Of a stretch of DNA of 36,230 nucleotides, positions 4,944-19,166 are shown piece after piece. Where the stretch lies: the IMG/VR virus record IMGVR_UViG_3300020472_000079, positions 1-36,230 of that record; one strand, 5' to 3'. Below the pieces are notes generated by a model. That model saw only the letters and a program-made list of their open reading frames with translations. It ran no database searches and had not been told where the DNA came from. The translations under genes were made by a program, and so were the position numbers. How positions within the stretch are numbered: position 1 is the first letter of the stretch; every line of letters begins with the position of its first letter. Source of the DNA: a virus.

Positions 4944-5132
4944 ATGATTCATATGAACCTAGAGTCTTACTTTAGGTTGAATTTTTCTTTGATGCAGTAT
5001 CATAAATACAGCTTAACAGAGATTGAAAATCTTATTCCTTGGGAACGAGATATCTATGTTGGTCTCCTTCAAGCACACCTTGAAGAGGAAGAGTTAAAGC
5101 AAAAGCAACAAAGAGCGAATGCCAGCTACTAA
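4944..5132 (+). CDS. Small gp51-position protein, possible frameshift domain of gp26
   Basis: A 62-residue ORF containing LNFSLMQYHKYSLTEIENL and WERDIYVGLLQ, ending in a charged helix (EEEELKQKQQ). It occupies the place of T4 gene 51 (hub assembly) between gp26 and the tape measure, but is much shorter than T4 gp51 (249 residues). Short helical segments of this kind, with a W-x-R-D/E core, are typical of the 'T' extension of tail-assembly chaperones made by -1 frameshift. It lies in the -1 frame relative to gp26, two bases after its stop, and the frame is open back to the slippery site. It may be translated from its own ATG, as a fusion, or both. It overlaps the next gene by 14 bases. Confidence 0.65.
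   Translation: MIHMNLESYFRLNFSLMQYHKYSLTEIENLIPWERDIYVGLLQAHLEEEELKQKQQRANASY
4956..4978 (+). other. Hairpin downstream of the frameshift site
   Basis: A 9-bp stem (4956-4964 with 4970-4978, one G-U pair) closes a 5-nt loop TCTTA. It starts 20 nt after the slippery heptamer, further than the usual 5-9 nt for a stimulatory element, so its role is uncertain. It has no U-tract and is not a terminator. Confidence 0.45.
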
Positions 5133-6937: not shown

Positions 6938-9115
6938 ATGGCAGTAGATACCCAAAAGTTATTAGCATTAGCACCTGCAAAGAAGGGAGGAAATTTAGCG
7001 TCTGCTATTAAACCTAAAGAGTCTTCTAAGGAAACTGCTGGTGGGAAACTTGTAGTTATTAAGACTAAAATAGTTAAAGCATCTGATATATTAAAGGGAA
7101 CTCTTGCTGCAGAAAAGAAAAATATTAATGATCAGAGAAAAATAGAAGAACAAAAGAAAAGAAAGAGTGAAGAAAAAGATCTAGAAACTCCAGAGAATAA
7201 AGATACGAAGGAATCAAAAAAACTTGGTATAAAATTACCAAAAATGAGTTGGTTAGATTCAGTTAAGAATTTTATTTTCACAACTCTTTTCGGTTTTGTT
7301 GCTGTTAGATTCTTAGAATTTTTACCCGCATTAATTAAACTTCTTAAACCATTAGCATCTATTGCTGGTTTTATAATGAAGATTGGGGAATTTGCACTTA
7401 AAGCCTTAATTGCGTTTGTTGATATAGGTTATAAAGCCTATGATGCAACTAGGGGATTTATAAAAAATCTATTTGGTGAAGAGGGAGCACAAACATTTGA
7501 TAATATCAGTGGACATTTAAATAAACTTTTTAATCTTATTAGTGCTATTGCATTAGGTGTTCTTTCCATTGGTAATGAATCTAATAGACAAAAGCAAAAT
7601 GAGATAAACAGAAGAACTAAAGGGAAACCAAAATTAAAAGAAAGATACGAACGTCGTCAAAATTATAAGAAGCAGAAATTAAAAAATAATAAACTTAAAA
7701 CTAATAAACTTAAAACTAATAAACTTAAAACTAATAAACTTAAAACTAATAAATTAAAAACTAATAAACTTAGTAATAAGAGTAACTTAAAGAATAAACT
7801 TGCAAAATCTAATAAATTAAATACTAAACTTACTAAATTAAATTCTAAACTTACTAAAATTAATACTCAATTAAAGACTAGTCTAAGTAACTTAAAGACT
7901 AGTCTAGGTAACTTAAAAAGTAAGTTAAAAGATAACGTAAGTAAAGCAACTAATAACTTAAAGAATCAACTTACAAAAGCTAATAAATTAAATTCTAATC
8001 TTACTAAAGCAAATACTCAATTAAAGACTAATCTAAGTAAATTAAAGACTGGTGCAAGTAATTTAAAGACTGGTGCAAGTAACTTAAAGACTACAGGTGG
8101 TAAGATTGTCAAAAGATTGGGGATGAAGATGAATACTGGGATGGTCCAAAATATGAAAGGACTATCTAAAATGGCAAAGGGTGTGAGAATACCTATTGTA
8201 GGTCCATTAATATCTGCTTTGTTTTCATATCTTTCAGATGGTAAGTGGGATAAAGCATTATTTGTAGGAATAGGAACTGCATTAGGTGAAATGCTTGGCA
8301 CAGCAATTCCTATTCCAGTTTTAGGTACCATATTAGGTGGGTTAGTTGGTTTTTATATTGGAGATTTATTATTTACCTTATTCAGAGGTGGAGGGGTTAA
8401 AGAAGTTATCAATAAGTTGAAAGAGGATTTGGTAAAAGCTTTTAATGTTGGTAAGACAGTTGCTAAATGGGGCAAAACTGGATTTGAAAGATTGGTAGAA
8501 GGTATTCCTACAATAAACGTGCCTTTCGTTGGAGAACAACCAAATTTAGCATGGTTATTAAATCCTGCTAATGTTGTTGCTAAAGCTAAATTACTTGCTA
8601 AAGCATTTTTATCAAGAGATCCGATGAAAGAGGAGAAGGATAAGAAGGTTAAGGAGAAGAAAAAAACTAATATTAAAAAAGATGAAGAAGGTTATTTGTC
8701 TATGTTGAGTTCAGGAGAAAAAGGTAAAATAGAACAAGCTTTATATGAACTGAGGATTAATTCTCTAAAAACTGGAGAATCACATAGTGATATGGTTGGA
8801 AATCCAAAATATGCTGGAGATGTTGATTTAATTATGAAGCATGGAATACAAAAGGTAGAGATTAATAATGGACGGGTGACTCTTCAGGGTAATGCTAGTA
8901 GTATTGTTCCGCTAGATGTTAATTCTGTGAAAGTAGATAATATTTCCACCAGTGCCTCTTATGAGGATGGATCAAATAATGAAGTTGTAGTTGAAGATGT
9001 CACAGGTTCAGGAGATGATGATAGTGAGGTAATCTCTACTGTTGTTTCTGGTGGTAGTGATGAAAGTGGTTCTCTTAGTGAGTCTTCTGCTTTACAGTAT
9101 AAAAAAGCAGGTTAA
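6938..9115 (+). CDS. Tape-measure-like tail protein 2 with tandem repeats
   Basis: A 725-residue protein beginning four bases after protein 1. The layout resembles its neighbour: a charged N-terminal coil (about 50-95), a hydrophobic stretch (about 111-175), then a long basic K/N/L/T repeat region (about 246-386) starting with five KLKTN units, and a second strongly hydrophobic glycine-containing region (about 420-483). The last 150 residues are acidic and serine-rich. Repeats plus membrane-like helices suit a tape measure or an inner-tail protein ejected into the cell. T4 has only a small protein (gp28) and gp29 here, so correspondence is unclear. I infer a tape-measure or tail-lumen role from architecture and location between the chaperones and the gp27-like hub. 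Confidence 0.5.
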   Translation: MAVDTQKLLALAPAKKGGNLASAIKPKESSKETAGGKLVVIKTKIVKASDILKGTLAAEKKNINDQRKIEEQKKRKSEEKDLETPENKDTKESKKLGIKLPKMSWLDSVKNFIFTTLFGFVAVRFLEFLPALIKLLKPLASIAGFIMKIGEFALKALIAFVDIGYKAYDATRGFIKNLFGEEGAQTFDNISGHLNKLFNLISAIALGVLSIGNESNRQKQNEINRRTKGKPKLKERYERRQNYKKQKLKNNKLKTNKLKTNKLKTNKLKTNKLKTNKLSNKSNLKNKLAKSNKLNTKLTKLNSKLTKINTQLKTSLSNLKTSLGNLKSKLKDNVSKATNNLKNQLTKANKLNSNLTKANTQLKTNLSKLKTGASNLKTGASNLKTTGGKIVKRLGMKMNTGMVQNMKGLSKMAKGVRIPIVGPLISALFSYLSDGKWDKALFVGIGTALGEMLGTAIPIPVLGTILGGLVGFYIGDLLFTLFRGGGVKEVINKLKEDLVKAFNVGKTVAKWGKTGFERLVEGIPTINVPFVGEQPNLAWLLNPANVVAKAKLLAKAFLSRDPMKEEKDKKVKEKKKTNIKKDEEGYLSMLSSGEKGKIEQALYELRINSLKTGESHSDMVGNPKYAGDVDLIMKHGIQKVEINNGRVTLQGNASSIVPLDVNSVKVDNISTSASYEDGSNNEVVVEDVTGSGDDDSEVISTVVSGGSDESGSLSESSALQYKKAG
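7688..7762 (+). repeat. 15-bp tandem repeat, five copies
   Basis: Four perfect copies of AATAAACTTAAAACT (7688-7747) and a fifth with one or two changes (7748-7762) encode successive N-K-L-K-T pentapeptides in tape-measure-like protein 2. A degraded sixth copy follows. Degenerate related repeats continue to about 8095, including a 21-nt tandem unit (AAAGACTGGTGCAAGTAA-type) encoding KTGASNL twice. Confidence 0.95.
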
Positions 9116-9138: not shown

Positions 9139-10641
9139 ATGGCAGGAGCAGTAACAGCAGACACAAGAAAGAAAACTCAACAGTCGCAGAAAGATGCTCA
9201 AAAGGCAACTGCTGCAGCTTCTATTGAGAAGGTAACCATTACTGCTAATGGTGGAAAATCAAATAAAAGAGGTAGAGATACTAGTAAGAGTGCTGATGTT
9301 GCAAGTGGTGTTATTAATTTAAAATATTATGAGAGTTTACTTCAAGATCACGTTGTAGTAGAACTTACTTTTGCCGATAGTGGTGGTGGGATGGATAATA
9401 AGAGTGTTGTAGATGGTTTACCTGTCGAGAATGAATGTAATGTTGATCTAAAAATTAAAGATACTCAAGGAGAGATTTTAGATTTTCGTACCAGTAAAAA
9501 TAATTCCTTTAAGGTAGAGAAGGTTACTAATATTGGTGATGATGCAACTAAATCTGTTGTTAGTCTTCAATTAATTACTACTGAGGCAGTTAAGAATAAT
9601 TATAGTGGAGTTGAAATAAGAAAAGATGGTAAAATATCTGAGCACGTAAAAAGAATTTTAACGGATAAAGAGTATCTTAATTCAAAGAAAAAACTTAATA
9701 TAGATGAGACTGCTAATAATTTAAATTATTGTTTTGCAAAGAATAAACCATTTTTTGTAATAAATCGAATAGCAAAGGATGCTGTTCCTCAAGGTGCAGA
9801 TGGGAGTTCTGGATCCAAACTTGGAAAGAGTGCAGGATTTCTTTTTTATGAAACTTATGAAGGATATTATTTCAGAGGTATTGATACTTTATTTGGACAA
9901 GAACATAAAATAAAAGTCATTTATAATAATACACCAGGAACTACAATTCCAGATAATTATGATGCAAAGGCACTTACATATCATAAAGAAGGAACTCCTA
10001 GTTTGACTAAGAAATTGCAAGCAGGTTTCCAAAATACTAAAATAACTCAATTCAATCCTCTTACGATGGAATATAAAGTTTCATCTTTTAATGCAGAGGA
10101 CATGGAAGAATCATTGACTTTGGCAGGTAAAGAATTTCCAGCCTTGAATCAGGAATTTAATAATCAAGAGTTGAATAAAAATTATTCTCGTTCAACTTTT
10201 ATAGTTGATATGCCAGGAGTTCTACCTACAGGAGATGGAACTGGTGATAAACAAGAGCAATTGGGAGATAAGTCTAAAGAACTTAATTTTGATTCTGCAT
10301 CTATATTAAATCAATCGATTATGAGATATAACCAAATGTTCTTTCAAAAGGTTACTATCACTATACCAGGAGATTTTTCTTTACATGCTGGTGATGCTAT
10401 ACGTATTGATACAGTTGAACACAAGGAAACTGAGAATCAATCTTGTGGAGATGATGTTGATAAAAAGAATGGTGGTAAATATATCATTTCTACATTATGT
10501 CACTACTTGACTCCTGACAATACTTATACTAAATTAGTATTGATCAGAGACTCTGTAGGAAGAACTCCTTCTAAAGGTGGTGGAACAACAGATTTTCATG
10601 GATCTAAGGTTCCAAAAGGATCTGGAGGCAATATTATCTGA
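9139..10641 (+). CDS. 27: gp27-like baseplate hub protein
   Basis: A 500-residue protein. From about residue 58 it reads NLKYYESLLQDHVVVELTF, then NVDLKIKDTQGEILDF, KVEKVTNIGD and SLQLITTEAVKNNYS, the strand pattern of hub proteins of the gp27/gpD/gp44 class that form the trimeric ring between tail tube and spike. Later segments include AGFLFYETYEGYYFRGIDTL and a GDFSLHAGDAIRI beta-barrel motif with an SCGDDV and IISTLCHYLTP ending, consistent with the second tube-like domain. T4 gp27 is 391 residues. A strong ribosome site AGGAGG (9124-9129) sits nine bases before the ATG. It precedes the gp5-like gene, as hub and spike genes usually do, with the CP12-like gene in between. Confidence 0.78.
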   Translation: MAGAVTADTRKKTQQSQKDAQKATAAASIEKVTITANGGKSNKRGRDTSKSADVASGVINLKYYESLLQDHVVVELTFADSGGGMDNKSVVDGLPVENECNVDLKIKDTQGEILDFRTSKNNSFKVEKVTNIGDDATKSVVSLQLITTEAVKNNYSGVEIRKDGKISEHVKRILTDKEYLNSKKKLNIDETANNLNYCFAKNKPFFVINRIAKDAVPQGADGSSGSKLGKSAGFLFYETYEGYYFRGIDTLFGQEHKIKVIYNNTPGTTIPDNYDAKALTYHKEGTPSLTKKLQAGFQNTKITQFNPLTMEYKVSSFNAEDMEESLTLAGKEFPALNQEFNNQELNKNYSRSTFIVDMPGVLPTGDGTGDKQEQLGDKSKELNFDSASILNQSIMRYNQMFFQKVTITIPGDFSLHAGDAIRIDTVEHKETENQSCGDDVDKKNGGKYIISTLCHYLTPDNTYTKLVLIRDSVGRTPSKGGGTTDFHGSKVPKGSGGNII

Positions 10642-10645
10642 TCAT

Positions 10646-10653
10646 GATAAATA
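10646..10653 (+). promoter_or_regulatory. Late-promoter-like box upstream of the CP12-like gene
   Basis: GATAAATA, one mismatch from TATAAATA, ends 21 nt before the ATG of the small gene at 10675. The same octamer occurs before the genes at 19376 and 28199. Confidence 0.55.
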
Positions 10654-10674: not shown

Positions 10675-10941
10675 ATGTCAGAAATCAAACACGATTTAGA
10701 CCACGAAGTCTACCTTGACCCTAAAGATGGTAAAGAGCATACTAATCATGGTATGCACGAGTATACTAAAGAAGACTTAGAATCTTCTCATGCTTATTAT
10801 GATGAATATCATAAAGGTGAAGAGGTAGATACTAATGATGCTAAAATTAATGATTGGCATACAAGGCACGAGGATAGTCATTTAGAAATCTATTGTGATA
10901 ATCATCCTGATGCAGATGAATGTAAGGTATACGACGATTAA
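10675..10941 (+). CDS. CP12-like C-terminal domain protein
   Basis: An 88-residue acidic, histidine-rich protein. The last 20 residues, HLEIYCDNHPDADECKVYDD, carry the CP12 C-terminal signature: C74 and C83 separated by eight residues with a central N-x-P, followed by K-V-Y-D-D. In cyanobacteria and plastids this redox-controlled disulphide loop inserts into GAPDH and, with the rest of CP12, inhibits the Calvin cycle together with PRK. Cyanophages are known to carry CP12 genes. The N-terminal cysteine pair and the AWD-x-VEEL core are not visible, so only GAPDH binding would be expected. It stands between the hub gene and the gp5-like gene, three bases before the latter, behind its own late-type box. 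A structural protein with a coincidental motif is possible but less likely. Confidence 0.65.
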   Translation: MSEIKHDLDHEVYLDPKDGKEHTNHGMHEYTKEDLESSHAYYDEYHKGEEVDTNDAKINDWHTRHEDSHLEIYCDNHPDADECKVYDD

Positions 10942-10944
10942 AAA

Positions 10945-12735
10945 ATGGCAGAAGGAGTATTAACAAACCAAGGATTTTATGGAGCTGATGGACGACAATG
11001 GCCTTTTATAGGTCAGGTTGCCGATGATTCCACTTGGAGAGATAATACTCTTCCTGGAAAATTTAAAAGTGCTAAGACTATTCCTGGTTGGGGTCGAAGA
11101 GTAAAATTAAGGATCATGGGAGTTCATGATCAGGAACAAGAAACAATTCCTGATGATCAACTTCCGTGGGCAACTATTGAGTATCCTACTACAGCAGGAT
11201 CGGGTGGAGCAAATGCATTCCAAACAGTAAACATTCGACAAGGGATGTTTGTTACTGGGTATTTCTTAGATGGAGCAGATCAAAATGTTCCTGTGATTAC
11301 TGGAGTCATGGGTCAAAATGCTCAGACTGAAATGCAAAACACGACTGGTATGACTGGTGGTAAGGCATTCAAGTCGATGAGTGGGTTTGCAAAAACTAAA
11401 GAACCATATAAAGGACAAACAAAACCAAAAGTTCCTGATGAAGCTTTGGTAGTTGATGAGGAATCTGAAGATACTGCAACTCCACCACCAGGATCTCCAC
11501 TTAATAAGTTTGGACTATCAGGTACACCCACTGCCAAACAACTTGCAATGATTGCAAGTGCCACAACAGATGCTGATGCATTAGGATTGGTAGGTGATAA
11601 ATTAGATACTTTTGTTAAAAATACCGTTACTACAGGAGTCGATAATCTTAGAAAAACTGAAAAATTAGCAACAAGACCTCCTTTAAAGAATGCTACAAAG
11701 GAGAATCCTGATGCTGTTCATATGATGAGTGCTGGTGATATAAAGAGAAATAAGAAGATGTGTGAAAAGATTGTCACTATGAAACCAGATGACATAGTTC
11801 AATCATCATTGAAAGCAGTTCAAACTGTTACTGAAAATCTTAGTAAAGAAATAGAAGATATTCAGGATGCTATTAAAAGTTATACTGGTGCTGTGTCTTC
11901 AACTGGTAGTCCTGTACAAGATATGAAGGAGGTTATTGGTAAAGCAGCATGTCAAATAGCAAAATATATGAAGATAGTTTTTGATAAGATTATGAATTAT
12001 GTGATGGATACTTTAAATGCTAATATGACAGATGTAGTAGCATCAGTTCCATCTAGTATGAGATATCAATTGTCTGACATGAAAAAAGTTATTGGTGAAT
12101 TGACTCTGTGTATGTATGGTAAAATTACTAATAGTCTTTGTGGTAGTATTGAAGGAATATTAAATGGTTTATTCGATCCTGATAAGTTAAAGAAACAAGC
12201 AGAAGAAGATGCATTAAATCCCAATGCTAATCAAGATACATATCCTTCAGTTCCTGCTTGTGCAGCAGAAGATATGATGGGAGAAGTACTTTCAATACAT
12301 AAGGATGCTATTAACGAGGCAAATAATAGTTTAATTGATAATATTAATAGTTTTCTAGATGATATTCAAAGTCAATTAGCAGGTGTCAGTGGTGCAATGG
12401 GTGATATTATGACAAAGATGGGTGGTATTAATGGTAGTATGACTTCTGCTTTAGGTTTTGCTAATATCAAATTAAATGTTTTTGGTTGTGAATTAAAACC
12501 TTCTGCATCAATGTCTGATTATTATACATTATGTACAGGAGGTGCAGGAGCTCCACAACAACAGTTGCCAAGTAATAAGGCAGTAGAGAATAGAGCAACT
12601 CAAACTGCAACGAATAATGTTCCACCAGAGACTAATTACTTAGAACCAACTAAAGGTCAAGAAGAGGTCGATTTAACAGTATCCGAAGCAGTTGCAGAGA
12701 ATACTGCTCAAGAAACTGAGTTCAACATGTTTTAA
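10945..12735 (+). CDS. 5: gp5-like baseplate hub protein (OB-fold, no lysozyme seen)
   Basis: A 596-residue protein. Residues 10-130 match the N-terminal OB-fold of gp5/VgrG-type spikes: FYGADGRQWPFIGQVADDS, GWGRRVKLRIMG, DQLPWATIEYP, NIRQGMFVTGYFLDG and VPVITGVMG. This part docks on the hub trimer. T4 gp5 continues with a lysozyme and a C-terminal beta-helix; neither is seen here. Residues 260-530 look mainly helical, with about seven scattered cysteines (for example KMCEKIV, AACQIAKY, SLCGSIEG, FGCELKP) and no recognisable lysozyme motif. The beta-helical needle seems to be the separate protein at 17146. The C-terminal 60 residues are polar. It lies directly after the CP12-like gene. Confidence 0.8.
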   Translation: MAEGVLTNQGFYGADGRQWPFIGQVADDSTWRDNTLPGKFKSAKTIPGWGRRVKLRIMGVHDQEQETIPDDQLPWATIEYPTTAGSGGANAFQTVNIRQGMFVTGYFLDGADQNVPVITGVMGQNAQTEMQNTTGMTGGKAFKSMSGFAKTKEPYKGQTKPKVPDEALVVDEESEDTATPPPGSPLNKFGLSGTPTAKQLAMIASATTDADALGLVGDKLDTFVKNTVTTGVDNLRKTEKLATRPPLKNATKENPDAVHMMSAGDIKRNKKMCEKIVTMKPDDIVQSSLKAVQTVTENLSKEIEDIQDAIKSYTGAVSSTGSPVQDMKEVIGKAACQIAKYMKIVFDKIMNYVMDTLNANMTDVVASVPSSMRYQLSDMKKVIGELTLCMYGKITNSLCGSIEGILNGLFDPDKLKKQAEEDALNPNANQDTYPSVPACAAEDMMGEVLSIHKDAINEANNSLIDNINSFLDDIQSQLAGVSGAMGDIMTKMGGINGSMTSALGFANIKLNVFGCELKPSASMSDYYTLCTGGAGAPQQQLPSNKAVENRATQTATNNVPPETNYLEPTKGQEEVDLTVSEAVAENTAQETEFNMF

Positions 12736-12740
12736 AAATA

Positions 12741-15700
12741 ATGTCAGAATTTAATCTCTTCGGACCCGCTACTAAAGATCAAATTAGAGTTGCTTATATC
12801 TCTACTGAGAGAGGATTGGTTGATAATGTAACTGTTTGTGAGGCAAATAGTTATGCACAATTAAATCCAGGTACTCAATTTATTTTTAGTAATAGAGAGT
12901 TTACCAAATATATGAATATTAATGGAGTTAATAAACTGACTCCTGATGACATGACACCAACGCAAGGGTGTGATGGTATTGAAATGACTAAGGAATGTGG
13001 TCCTCCTCAAGTATTCTTTTCTGGTGGAGATGGAATTGGTATTAAGGGAAATCCTATCATTGGACAAGATGGTTCAATAATGGCAATTGATTTAGTTTCT
13101 GGTGGATTTGGTTTTCAATCTCCACCTCATGTTGAAGTAAAGGATAATTGTGGAATTGGTGCAGGTGGTAATTTTAGAGCAGAATTGGGTGATATAGCCG
13201 AAACTGTAGAATATTATGATTTAGAAGAAGATTTTGAAGAGTATGAAATATGTAACGCTATTAGTGATATTACTGCATATGGTGATGTATATGGTAGAAG
13301 ATTTGGAGTAAATGGTGAGGACTTGGGAGTGTGGGAACCCAAGATGTATGCAAACTTTGATAATGATCCTATACGTAAGGAGATTGTAAAGTATCAGCAG
13401 GTTCTTCAAGAAGGAACTAATCCTTTTTGGACTACTAGAAAGCAATCTCCATTATCTTTGACTGGTGAGAAAGGAACCACTAGAAGGGTATATAATGTTG
13501 ATGCTCCTCGTGCATGGGGCGATTTCATGAATACTTATGCAGTATCACCTAAACCTAAATCAAATGCATCTGGTAGTGATTTTGCAGGTATACCCTATAC
13601 CTTTGTATGGGAAGAAGAATTTCCTTATGATGGGGAGTATATTTTTAGAGCACAGTGTGATAATAAAGCAGAACTTTATTTTGATAATTTACCACTTTCT
13701 AATTTTAAAATAGGATTTGGTGGAGCTGCAGGACATACACTATCTGCTCCTGAATCAATTAAAAAAACTGTAAAAGCAGGTGTTCATCAGATCAGAGTTG
13801 ATTTGTTGAATCTTCCTATTATGGAAACTATAATAGAACAGGAACCTGTTGCTACAGATGAATCAACAACTAAAACTGTAGTATATGTTGGGTTACATGG
13901 TGCAAATAAACCTATTAGAGTAACTGAAGATAAGAAAGGAATTGAATTAAAAGATGGTGATGGTGATGATACTAATTGTTCTTTGCGTATTAAGTCGGGA
14001 GATTTAAAATTTTCTGATGATGGTAAGAGTATTATAGGACCTGGCACTGCCACTATTGAAATGAATTGGAATGATAGACCTCGTACTGCTGGAGTTGCTG
14101 TTGAAAAGATTACCATAGCAGGTACGACATGGACTCAAGCAGGTCGTAGTGGTACTGAAACACATCTAGTTACCATAGATGCTCCACCTAAACCTGTAGT
14201 AAAGTCTACAAAATCTCAAGAGATGGAGATTAGTAAAGTTTTTAATACTATTGATTATATGAATAAGGCTAATAGGCCTCTTTGGAGAACTAATGTTATT
14301 AATAAGGGTGGATTTATAAATGAGTATGGAGTTTGTCCTTTTGATACTAGAGTTACTTTAGATGATAACCCTTATGCAGGAACTCATACTATTAGGTGGA
14401 ATAATATTAAATTTCCTATTGATGGTAATTATGATATAGGAATACAAGTAGATGATAATGTTACTCTTCATATTGAAGACCCGACAAGAGGGACAAAAGA
14501 AACAATAAGAAAGATTGGATTTGCTGGTGATACTAATACAAGCACTGGAAAATCTAATTATGTAAGGAATTTTTTAAAGGGTACATATACAATCACTGCA
14601 GAATTAGAACAAATACCTGGTGGTAGATTTGGATTTGAACCTGGTGTTCCTGCGGGATTTTCTAAAATTATTTACAATGGATTACATCCAGCAAACAATC
14701 CAATTAGAGTTGTTAATGCTGGTAAGAAAATTGAATTAAAAGATGGACATGGTAATGATGCTAATGCAACTTTACAGATCACTTCTGGAAATGCTCTTTT
14801 TTCTGCTGATGGACAAAAATTAGAAGGTTCTGGTGAGGTTAGATTAGCATTCTCATGGAATGATAGAAGAACTGCTGGTCGTGCTATTAATAGTATTAGA
14901 ATTGGAACTGCTACTTTTAAAAGAAGTGGTACTAGTGGTAATTCTTCTCATACTGTAATTGTAGGTAACGATTTAAAGGGTGTTAATCCTATGGCTTTAG
15001 CAGTTAATATAGAAACTGCTTTCACAGCAAAGCAGGTTATTTCTGCCAAATCTTGGAATGAAAATCCTATGGGGATTGCATTAACCATTGATTCACCTGA
15101 TCCTCCTATACCACAAGAAAAGATACCAGAAGCACCTGGTAGATGTCCTAGAAATCCAATGTGGAGTACTAGACATCCAAATGCTGATCAAAAATGGTAC
15201 CCTGTAAGAATTGAAGGTTGGAGTTCCTTTCTTAATCGTTATGCTATGTCTCCAGTTCCACCTAGAGCTGATGTAAGTAGTGATGCTGGAGGAACAGTAT
15301 TTACAAGCACTTGGCAACAAGAAATTCCTTATAGTGGTTTCTATAAACTTAGAGCAGAAGTAGATGATATTTGTAGAATTTATGTTAATGGTGTAAAACA
15401 GATAGATCTTTCTAGAAGAGTAGATAAGATAAGAGGAGAAAAGAAATTCTTCATAGTTGGTGGAGACGATGTAACTGCGGAAATAAAAGTTGAAGTAGAG
15501 AATTATGATACTACAGTTTATGAAACCATAGATAAAAAGATTTTTAACACTGCTGATTGGGCAGTTACTAAAAAACAGATTATTGGTGGTGGATCTAATA
15601 GTGTAGATATACCCTATGTTGGATTACATCCTGCTAATAAACCTATTAGAGTAACTAGTGATGGTAAGAAAGTTGAACTGAAAGATGGTCATGGTGATGA

Positions 15701-17141
15701 TGCTAATGCTTCCTTTACTATTACTAGTGGAGATGTAAAATTTTCTCCTGATGGTAAGAAGATAGAAGGTACTGGATCTGCTACTTTAGTATTGTCATGG
15801 AACGATAATCCAAGAACTGCAGGTGTTGCTATAGAAAGTATTACTCTTAGTGGTAAGACATGGACAAGAAGTGGAAGAAGTGGTAGCCAAACTCATGTTA
15901 TTGATATGGGTGCTGCTTCTGTAGAAACTGCTGGATCTACTGCGGGTGGAACTTCTAAAGATGGTGTGAGTTATACTGGACCAGAATTAGCAACTTATAC
16001 TAGTGGAGAGTTAGGTGCTGCATTAACTCCAAAATGGGATTTTACTGGTGATGCTAAGATTGATAATGAAAATTATCGTTCTAATTATATGGATAAGGCA
16101 TGGACTTCGACATGGAGTAGTGTTGAGTTTCCTGAGGATGGACAATATCAGATTCAATGTATGGTTGATGATACATTAAGTATAAAATTAGATGGTGTTG
16201 AGATAGCAAAAACTTTTATAGGAGAAAATCTTATTCCAGGTCAAAATTATAGAGTATCTCCAGTAAAGACAGTAACCTTTAATGCTATTAAAGGAAAGAG
16301 AACCTTAAGTGCTACTTATACTAATATTCCAGGAAATCAAGGTAGTACTTTTTATACTAATCCTGTACATTTTTCTTTTAAAATTACAAGGAAAATAAAT
16401 GTTGGTAGTGGAAATAGTAGATCATGGGTTGATAATCCCATTGGTATATCTGCTGTTCTTATTCCACCTCCATGTCCTAAGGTAGTATCTGGAAAGGGTA
16501 CTGTTACTAAGGTTATAGTAGATGATCCTGGAAATGGATTCCCTAAACCTGATGGTGATGGTTATCCTGTGGGTCTTGGTTTATCTGCCATAAACATTAC
16601 TGATTGTGGAATAAACTATGATTGTAGTAAAGATAGATTGGTGATTGAACCTAGTAATGGTGCGAGTGCATCATTAATATGTGATAATTTTGGTAGAATT
16701 TCTGATGTAATTGTTGATGAACCTGGTCTTGGTTTTACTGAATGGCCTTCGATAAGAATTGAAAGAGATCCTGGTGTTGGAGCTCCAGATGATCAACCAA
16801 CTGGTGTTAACTTTGAGGCAGTTCCAGTTTTTGATATAATACGTGATCCTATTGTGGTAAATAGGGATAAGTTACTTCAAGTAACAGATTTAGTTGGTGT
16901 TAAACAAACTGGATATTATGAGGGAAGACCTTACTATGGTGCTGTTTTCTATAAAGATAATGTTCGTTATGCTGGTTGGTATGAAACTGTTGGAGAGTTA
17001 GTTCAGATCTATGATACTCTACAAGAGAGTATTGACGCTGAAGTTACTACACCTCAATCTGCGATCCTTAGACAGGGTAGTGATGTTTCTAGTAATGATC
17101 CTAAACTTAATATTCCAGGTACTCCTGAAAACTTAACTTAA
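12741..17141 (+). CDS. Large repeat virion protein with PA14-like modules
   Basis: A 1466-residue protein beginning five bases after the gp5-like gene. It has an N-terminal region with a GSIMAIDLVSGGFGF motif that recurs near the C-terminus. Four PA14-like segments follow, centred on FVWEEEFPYDGEY, IRWNNIKFPIDGNY, STWQQEIPYSGFY and STWSSVEFPEDGQY, each followed by a D-D/D-N core (for example QVDDNVTLHI). Three copies of a roughly 100-residue module start YVGLHGANKPIRV, YNGLHPANNPIRV and YVGLHPANKPIRV and contain K-x-x-ELKDG-x-G-x-D and SWNDR/NPRTAG. PA14 domains bind carbohydrate in other systems. I recall large VrlC-like proteins at this place in marine T4-like phages, but cannot verify this. 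A tail-tip or baseplate adhesin is inferred. Confidence 0.6.
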   Translation: MSEFNLFGPATKDQIRVAYISTERGLVDNVTVCEANSYAQLNPGTQFIFSNREFTKYMNINGVNKLTPDDMTPTQGCDGIEMTKECGPPQVFFSGGDGIGIKGNPIIGQDGSIMAIDLVSGGFGFQSPPHVEVKDNCGIGAGGNFRAELGDIAETVEYYDLEEDFEEYEICNAISDITAYGDVYGRRFGVNGEDLGVWEPKMYANFDNDPIRKEIVKYQQVLQEGTNPFWTTRKQSPLSLTGEKGTTRRVYNVDAPRAWGDFMNTYAVSPKPKSNASGSDFAGIPYTFVWEEEFPYDGEYIFRAQCDNKAELYFDNLPLSNFKIGFGGAAGHTLSAPESIKKTVKAGVHQIRVDLLNLPIMETIIEQEPVATDESTTKTVVYVGLHGANKPIRVTEDKKGIELKDGDGDDTNCSLRIKSGDLKFSDDGKSIIGPGTATIEMNWNDRPRTAGVAVEKITIAGTTWTQAGRSGTETHLVTIDAPPKPVVKSTKSQEMEISKVFNTIDYMNKANRPLWRTNVINKGGFINEYGVCPFDTRVTLDDNPYAGTHTIRWNNIKFPIDGNYDIGIQVDDNVTLHIEDPTRGTKETIRKIGFAGDTNTSTGKSNYVRNFLKGTYTITAELEQIPGGRFGFEPGVPAGFSKIIYNGLHPANNPIRVVNAGKKIELKDGHGNDANATLQITSGNALFSADGQKLEGSGEVRLAFSWNDRRTAGRAINSIRIGTATFKRSGTSGNSSHTVIVGNDLKGVNPMALAVNIETAFTAKQVISAKSWNENPMGIALTIDSPDPPIPQEKIPEAPGRCPRNPMWSTRHPNADQKWYPVRIEGWSSFLNRYAMSPVPPRADVSSDAGGTVFTSTWQQEIPYSGFYKLRAEVDDICRIYVNGVKQIDLSRRVDKIRGEKKFFIVGGDDVTAEIKVEVENYDTTVYETIDKKIFNTADWAVTKKQIIGGGSNSVDIPYVGLHPANKPIRVTSDGKKVELKDGHGDDANASFTITSGDVKFSPDGKKIEGTGSATLVLSWNDNPRTAGVAIESITLSGKTWTRSGRSGSQTHVIDMGAASVETAGSTAGGTSKDGVSYTGPELATYTSGELGAALTPKWDFTGDAKIDNENYRSNYMDKAWTSTWSSVEFPEDGQYQIQCMVDDTLSIKLDGVEIAKTFIGENLIPGQNYRVSPVKTVTFNAIKGKRTLSATYTNIPGNQGSTFYTNPVHFSFKITRKINVGSGNSRSWVDNPIGISAVLIPPPCPKVVSGKGTVTKVIVDDPGNGFPKPDGDGYPVGLGLSAINITDCGINYDCSKDRLVIEPSNGASASLICDNFGRISDVIVDEPGLGFTEWPSIRIERDPGVGAPDDQPTGVNFEAVPVFDIIRDPIVVNRDKLLQVTDLVGVKQTGYYEGRPYYGAVFYKDNVRYAGWYETVGELVQIYDTLQESIDAEVTTPQSAILRQGSDVSSNDPKLNIPGTPENLT

Positions 17142-18661: not shown

Positions 18662-18865
18662 ATGAGTATGATGAGTGCTTGGATGGACGAAGAGTATTTA
18701 ATGAAATGTGTTGTTGATCCAGTTAAGAAAACATTTTATCTATATTCCAATGAAGGGGATACTAAGGAAGTAGTATGTGATAATACGGATCAGTTTATGA
18801 ATGTGTTGAGTTTAGTACGGGAAACTTGTCCTGAGGGAAGACTATCTTATGCTAACCCACTGTAG
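18662..18865 (+). CDS. Small protein of unknown function
   Basis: A 67-residue protein, not recognised. It contains AWMDEEYLMKCVVDPVKKTF and YLYSNEGDTKEVVCDNTDQF, suggesting a small beta-sheet domain followed by a helix (MNVLSLVRE). The start is uncertain: ATG codons lie at 18662, 18668, 18671 and 18683. The consensus promoter just upstream would begin transcription at about 18665, after the first ATG, so either a (near-)leaderless start at 18668/18671 or an internal start at 18683 is more likely from that promoter. It is the first of three small genes probably expressed at a different time from the surrounding structural genes. Confidence 0.65.
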   Translation: MSMMSAWMDEEYLMKCVVDPVKKTFYLYSNEGDTKEVVCDNTDQFMNVLSLVRETCPEGRLSYANPL

Positions 18866-18896: not shown

Positions 18897-19166
18897 ATGA
18901 AATACCGAATTGATACCAGATATTGCTGGTATAATCACAAGACACAAATTGTTTTAATGTATTTCATCAATCAAGTTCCTTTTACTTTTGAAGACCTTCC
19001 TCTAATTGCCAAAGATGATCCTGAGATAGTTGAAATTGCAGATAATGAAAGATCTTATGAGACAGAAGATTTGTATAAGGCATATCAATATCTTATGGCA
19101 GAGCAATGTCACCCTTTAGAATTTGAGTTAGAATTAGAAAACGCTGATTTACTTCCTGTAGATTAA
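18897..19166 (+). CDS. Small acidic protein of unknown function
   Basis: An 89-residue protein, not recognised. It begins MKYRIDTRYCWYNHKTQIVL, followed by a FTFEDLPLIAKDDPEIVEI segment and an acidic C-terminus (FELELENADLLPVD). No membrane segment or catalytic motif is seen. A late-type box lies 21 nt upstream, and its stop codon overlaps the start of the next small gene (TAATG), so the two are probably coupled. The function remains unknown; a host-modifying or regulatory role is possible given the distinct promoter arrangement of this island. Confidence 0.65.
   Translation: MKYRIDTRYCWYNHKTQIVLMYFINQVPFTFEDLPLIAKDDPEIVEIADNERSYETEDLYKAYQYLMAEQCHPLEFELELENADLLPVD

Follow-up and report, generated by a model that had tools for sequence, protein, structure and literature searches.

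A T4-GC 63-type cp12 gene between the gp27-like and gp5-like genes of an environmental T4-like cyanophage

The 36,230-base stretch of DNA analyzed here (the window; IMG/VR virus record IMGVR_UViG_3300020472_000079) includes the baseplate-tail gene region of a T4-like cyanophage; at the DNA level, it matches marine single-cell virus records as well as phages of Prochlorococcus and Synechococcus. A small ORF with an ATG start (positions 10675-10941, plus strand) encodes 88 amino acids; it begins 33 nt past the gene of a gp27-like tail protein (9139-10641, plus strand; phrog_350, E 5e-74) and ends 3 nt ahead of the gene of a gp5-like baseplate hub and tail lysozyme (10945-12735, plus strand; phrog_33098, E 6e-188). 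The initial annotation described its product as a CP12-like regulator of the Calvin cycle placed between these two genes, a location borne out by the ORF coordinates. The locus raises the question of whether such a protein regulates host carbon metabolism, belongs to the virion, or combines GAPDH binding with some other role. With a probability of about 85%, the gene is the cyanophage auxiliary metabolic gene cp12 in its T4-GC 63 form, encoding a GAPDH-binding protein.

The C-terminal region of the protein (residues 49-88; positions 10819-10938, plus strand) carries the predicted GAPDH-binding loop. The initial annotation had called for a profile search against CP12: Pfam PF02672 matches residues 49-87 with 32 bits (E 2.1e-7), above its curated gathering threshold of 22.7 bits. 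All six sequences matched by phmmer in the PDB are CP12 or CP12 fusions, the first being 3zdf (E 0.001, residues 69-88), followed by 6gfo, and the entire protein (residues 1-88) matches phrog_2603 with an E-value of 4e-24. C74 and C83 are separated by eight residues, the N-x-P motif corresponds to N76-H77-P78, and the chain ends with Y86-D87-D88, i.e., it shows the Cys pair spaced by eight and the terminal Y-[DE]-[DE] that are characteristic of CP12. The loop is present just as initially described, and the Pfam and PDB matches agree with it. A chance resemblance of the C-terminus to CP12 was rejected on the grounds of the Pfam score, the PDB matches, and the invariance of both cysteines, Y86, and D87 among relatives. 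Judged from its sequence, the ORF is a real gene with a genuine CP12 C-terminus.

The type of CP12 is indicated by PSSM2_066 from P-SSM2 (YP_214298.1), which is equal in length (267 bp with the stop codon) and 82% identical over all 88 amino acids; with this full-length homology, the window protein falls within the T4-GC 63 type. The two genes differ in their surroundings: PSSM2_066, annotated as 'hypothetical protein, T4-GC: 63', lies in a small-ORF region, not beside gp5, and has no late promoter box just upstream, whereas the window gene adjoins the gp5-like gene and is preceded by such a box. Table 3 of Sullivan et al. 2010 (PMC3037559) lists T4-GC 337 and 63 as 'CP12 = carbon metabolic regulator', and one of its entries has 267 bp, the length of PSSM2_066. 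In the same study, cp12 was found in 15 of the 16 cyanophages tabulated, and the positions of talC and cp12 were variable, near gp5 among them (PMC3037559). An ambiguous sentence there could be taken to mean that T4-GC 63 is transaldolase; this reading was rejected, as Table 3 gives TalC as T4-GC 239. Both the family assignment and the position are therefore in the literature, and the initial annotation was right to call CP12 a known cyanophage gene, its T4-GC 63 form having been named CP12 as early as 2010 (PMC3037559). The locus is not new in kind: the CP12 type and the tail-gene position were published in 2010, and the window represents one more environmental phage with the T4-GC 63 form. 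The phage records that the window protein matched all bear names of Synechococcus phages, Prochlorococcus phages, cyanophages, or uncultured marine viruses.

Canonical CP12 of the green lineage has an N-terminal Cys pair and an AWD_VEE core (PMC3906501). The window protein has neither: its first cysteine is residue 74, and the region of the core aligns in the profile comparison described below, with the motif absent. What it has in common with cyanobacterial and plant CP12 is the C-terminal GAPDH-binding loop, in line with a review according to which cyanophage proteins resemble chiefly the C-terminal region of CP12 (PMC3906501). The initial annotation correctly reported that the N-terminal cysteines and AWD are missing, but the oddness that it implied did not hold, as the five standard cyanophage CP12s examined likewise lack both. 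A similar arrangement occurs in the GapB subunit of plant A2B2-GAPDH, whose C-terminal extension is also a CP12-like Cys-pair tail without the N-terminal part; this tail suffices to inhibit the NADPH-dependent activity (PMC4436894). The GapB tail is part of an enzyme subunit, whereas the window CP12 is a separate protein.

In known complexes, the oxidized Cys-pair loop puts its acidic end into the cofactor site of GAPDH, facing an arginine; the penultimate E79 of Chlamydomonas CP12 contacts R82 of GAPDH, while in plant GapB the corresponding role belongs to the last residue, E362 (PMC4436894). E79 corresponds to D87 of the window protein. Upon oxidation, a C74-C83 disulfide would bend the C-terminal 20 residues into a loop; inserted into the cofactor pocket of the host photosynthetic GAPDH, this loop would block the use of NADPH by the enzyme. 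The resulting slowdown of the Calvin cycle would make both NADPH and carbon available to nucleotide synthesis and the pentose phosphate pathway. A link between phage cp12 and inhibited carbon fixation has been described before (PMC5082946). Even without the N-terminal Cys pair, the protein may bind GAPDH, but the second disulfide that canonical CP12 uses in the complex with PRK is precluded; binding of PRK by other means is possible. Most likely, the protein acts by binding the host GAPDH and thereby inhibiting the Calvin cycle.

Conservation was assessed in 82 sequences (72 distinct), i.e., the window protein, its P-SSM2 homolog, and the best 80 of the 451 IMG/VR stretches that encode a relative. 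Both cysteines, Y86, and D87 are invariant in this set, and residue 88 is either D or E. The acidic, His-rich N-terminal region (residues 1-48; positions 10675-10818, plus strand), which contains no cysteines, is conserved as well: its invariant residues include H6, L8, H10, E11, V12, Y13, D18, K20, E21, H22, N24, H25, G26, E29, Y30, D34, L35, H39, A40, Y42, Y45, H46, and K47. The protein has 11 histidines in 88 residues, ten of them invariant. Median pN and pS are 0.117 and 0.665, respectively, and the median dN/dS of the computable pairs is about 0.08, a rough figure because synonymous sites are near saturation. Purifying selection acts across the whole gene, and the invariance of the N-terminal part together with these figures therefore indicates that it is constrained as much as the loop. 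The initial description of an acidic, His-rich N-terminal part stands in that the region is strongly conserved, but it is not wholly unrelated to standard cyanophage CP12. When the T4-GC 63 group was compared with standard cyanophage CP12 at the profile level, the match had a probability of 97% over residues 24-88 of the window protein; residues 24-48 align with the pre-loop region of standard cyanophage CP12, where the alignment is gapped and tentative. The CP12 homology may accordingly extend ahead of the loop.

The conserved residues ahead of the loop have no established counterpart in host CP12, and an extra function for them is possible. They might form a site rich in His, Asp, and Glu for a second target or ligand, such as a metal or another host enzyme, so that GAPDH binding would be only part of the role of this CP12 derivative. 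The invariant histidines and the selection acting over the whole gene speak for such a site, as does the branch-specific nature of the region: in Syn1, S-CAM1, and RB11-B, whose T4-GC 63 proteins are shorter, much of it is missing, which makes it a feature of this branch. Against it stand the lack of any Pfam family match for residues 1-45 and the low confidence of the AlphaFold2 model (pLDDT 46.5, pTM 0.28), computed from an alignment of the window and IMG/VR sequences only, in which a helix spanning residues 32-45 is predicted at low confidence. These values would fit a conditionally disordered protein without proving one. On balance, such a second target or ligand is unlikely. It is similarly improbable that the CP12 of this T4-GC 63 branch binds a second partner, is expressed late from its own late promoter, and hence acts at another stage or on another partner than standard phage CP12.

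The timing of cp12 expression is suggested by a box, GATAAATA (positions 10646-10653, plus strand), which agrees with the cyanophage consensus NATAAATA, reported as the late promoter of S-PM2 and found in Syn9 too (PMC2984593). Its ATAAATA core (10647-10653) lies 22 nt ahead of the cp12 start. The window contains seven ATAAATA sites (5002, 10647, 19339, 28155, 31972, and 35221 on the plus strand, and 3402 on the minus strand), fewer than in shuffled sequences (mean 17.9). All but the one at 5002 precede a same-strand gene start by 20-38 nt, with gene starts taken by hand from the ORF list; random placement would give such a six-of-seven pattern with a probability of about 3e-10. This placement and the fit to the consensus thus make 10646-10653 a credible late promoter, and the late-type box reported in front of the gene is real. 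The six sites constitute a clean set of candidate late promoters in the window. The possibility of a sigma-70-like promoter in this region was rejected, since the 22 matches obtained are about what chance would give (17.1 in shuffles, sd 3.8). Late-type boxes also precede cp12 in S-SSM5, which additionally has TTGACA-17-TAGAAT, and in WH25-B; among the best 80 of the 451 IMG/VR relatives, 15 have a TAAATA core within 60 nt upstream. With a late box in front of it and a late structural gene on either side, the gene is probably transcribed late, and the late-acting variant suggested in the initial annotation is consistent with this box. The cp12 gene of P-HM2 is expressed in the middle cluster (PMC5082946), which may differ from the timing implied by the box found here and may count against the GAPDH-directed role.

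The structural neighborhood also bears on the suggestion of the initial annotation that a CP12 tail had been reused in a virion protein. If the protein were a tail-hub or other virion component with a borrowed CP12 tail, its gene would be expected in the structural operon, and the window gene indeed runs in the same direction as the hub genes and has a late box ahead of it; moreover, 58 of the 80 nearest of the 451 IMG/VR relatives have the gene after a gp27-like gene. The other 22, however, are found elsewhere (19 among small ORFs, and three before wedge genes of the gp25-gp6 type), as is the P-SSM2 homolog, so that the gene is not restricted to the structural operon. It is conserved equally in both settings: median identity to the window CP12 is 0.83 inside the slot and 0.82 outside it. 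In all but one relative, gp27 is only 22-43% identical to that of the window, while CP12 is about 80% identical, unlike a co-evolving partner. In P-HM2, the tail protein directly abuts gp5, and since the slot is empty there, the hub does not need CP12. The published virion lists of S-CREM2 and S-CREM1 name no CP12: the six named non-structural proteins of the S-CREM2 virion do not include it, and the S-CREM1 set of 14 is described as four structural proteins, nine with unknown function, and one lacking any match (PMC10665884, PMC9964418). These lists argue weakly, as small proteins are easily missed and the CP12s concerned are of another type. Taken together, the suggested reuse in a virion protein is not supported, and a hub component is very improbable. 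Identity that is independent of location, combined with a divergent gp27, therefore indicates that cp12 moves about as an auxiliary gene with a preference for certain slots and does not behave as a part of the hub.

The slot between the gp27-like gene and gp5 is a known cp12 site, a tolerated insertion position. CP12 of S-SM2 (T4-GC 337, phrog_627) occupies the identical slot, between the tail protein T4-GC 15 and gp5. It shares with the window CP12 the C-terminal Cys pair and the absence of N-terminal cysteines, yet it has 75 amino acids, a different N-terminal half, and an identity of only about 32%, compared with 43-48% for the flanking proteins. In S-SSM5, S-CREM1, and WH25-B, CP12 likewise comes after a tail protein of this kind, and other small genes separate it from gp5, whereas in P-TIM68 it is ahead of baseplate wedge genes. 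Two divergent CP12 forms hence share their insertion slots (near gp5 and near gp25-gp6), and a genome apparently carries only one of them: a single CP12-type place was seen in each of the 437 phage records that the window protein matched at E up to 10, and likewise in each of the six genomes searched with Pfam. One form thus seems to take the place of the other, though a very divergent second copy could have escaped detection.

The practical value of these results lies in annotation. Although their members are CP12, phrog_2603 (T4-GC 63) and phrog_627 (T4-GC 337) are listed with 'unknown function', and relatives go by 'CP12', 'carbon metabolic regulator', or 'hypothetical protein' in their records, the last being the name of many GenBank members.

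Two scans of genome contigs for CP12 of the picocyanobacterial hosts gave no locus in the first scan and four loci (L105-L108) in the second, in assemblies labeled as other organisms. These are cyanophage-like CP12 genes in contigs labeled Euryarchaeota, Nonlabens, and Rhodopirellula; the contigs are probably of phage or cyanobacterial origin. Elsewhere in the window, dense tandem repeats of 15 and 21 nt (7682-8093, within the ORF at 6938-9115) encode KLKTN-like repeats rich in Lys and Asn in a tail-region protein. Positions 12741-17141 encode a virion structural protein of 1466 amino acids that matches PA14 and contains repeated segments (phrog_32965, nine matched stretches). Two small ORFs precede a long tail-fiber gene, one matching DUF7294 and phrog_662 (18662-18865) and the other phrog_4134 (18897-19166).
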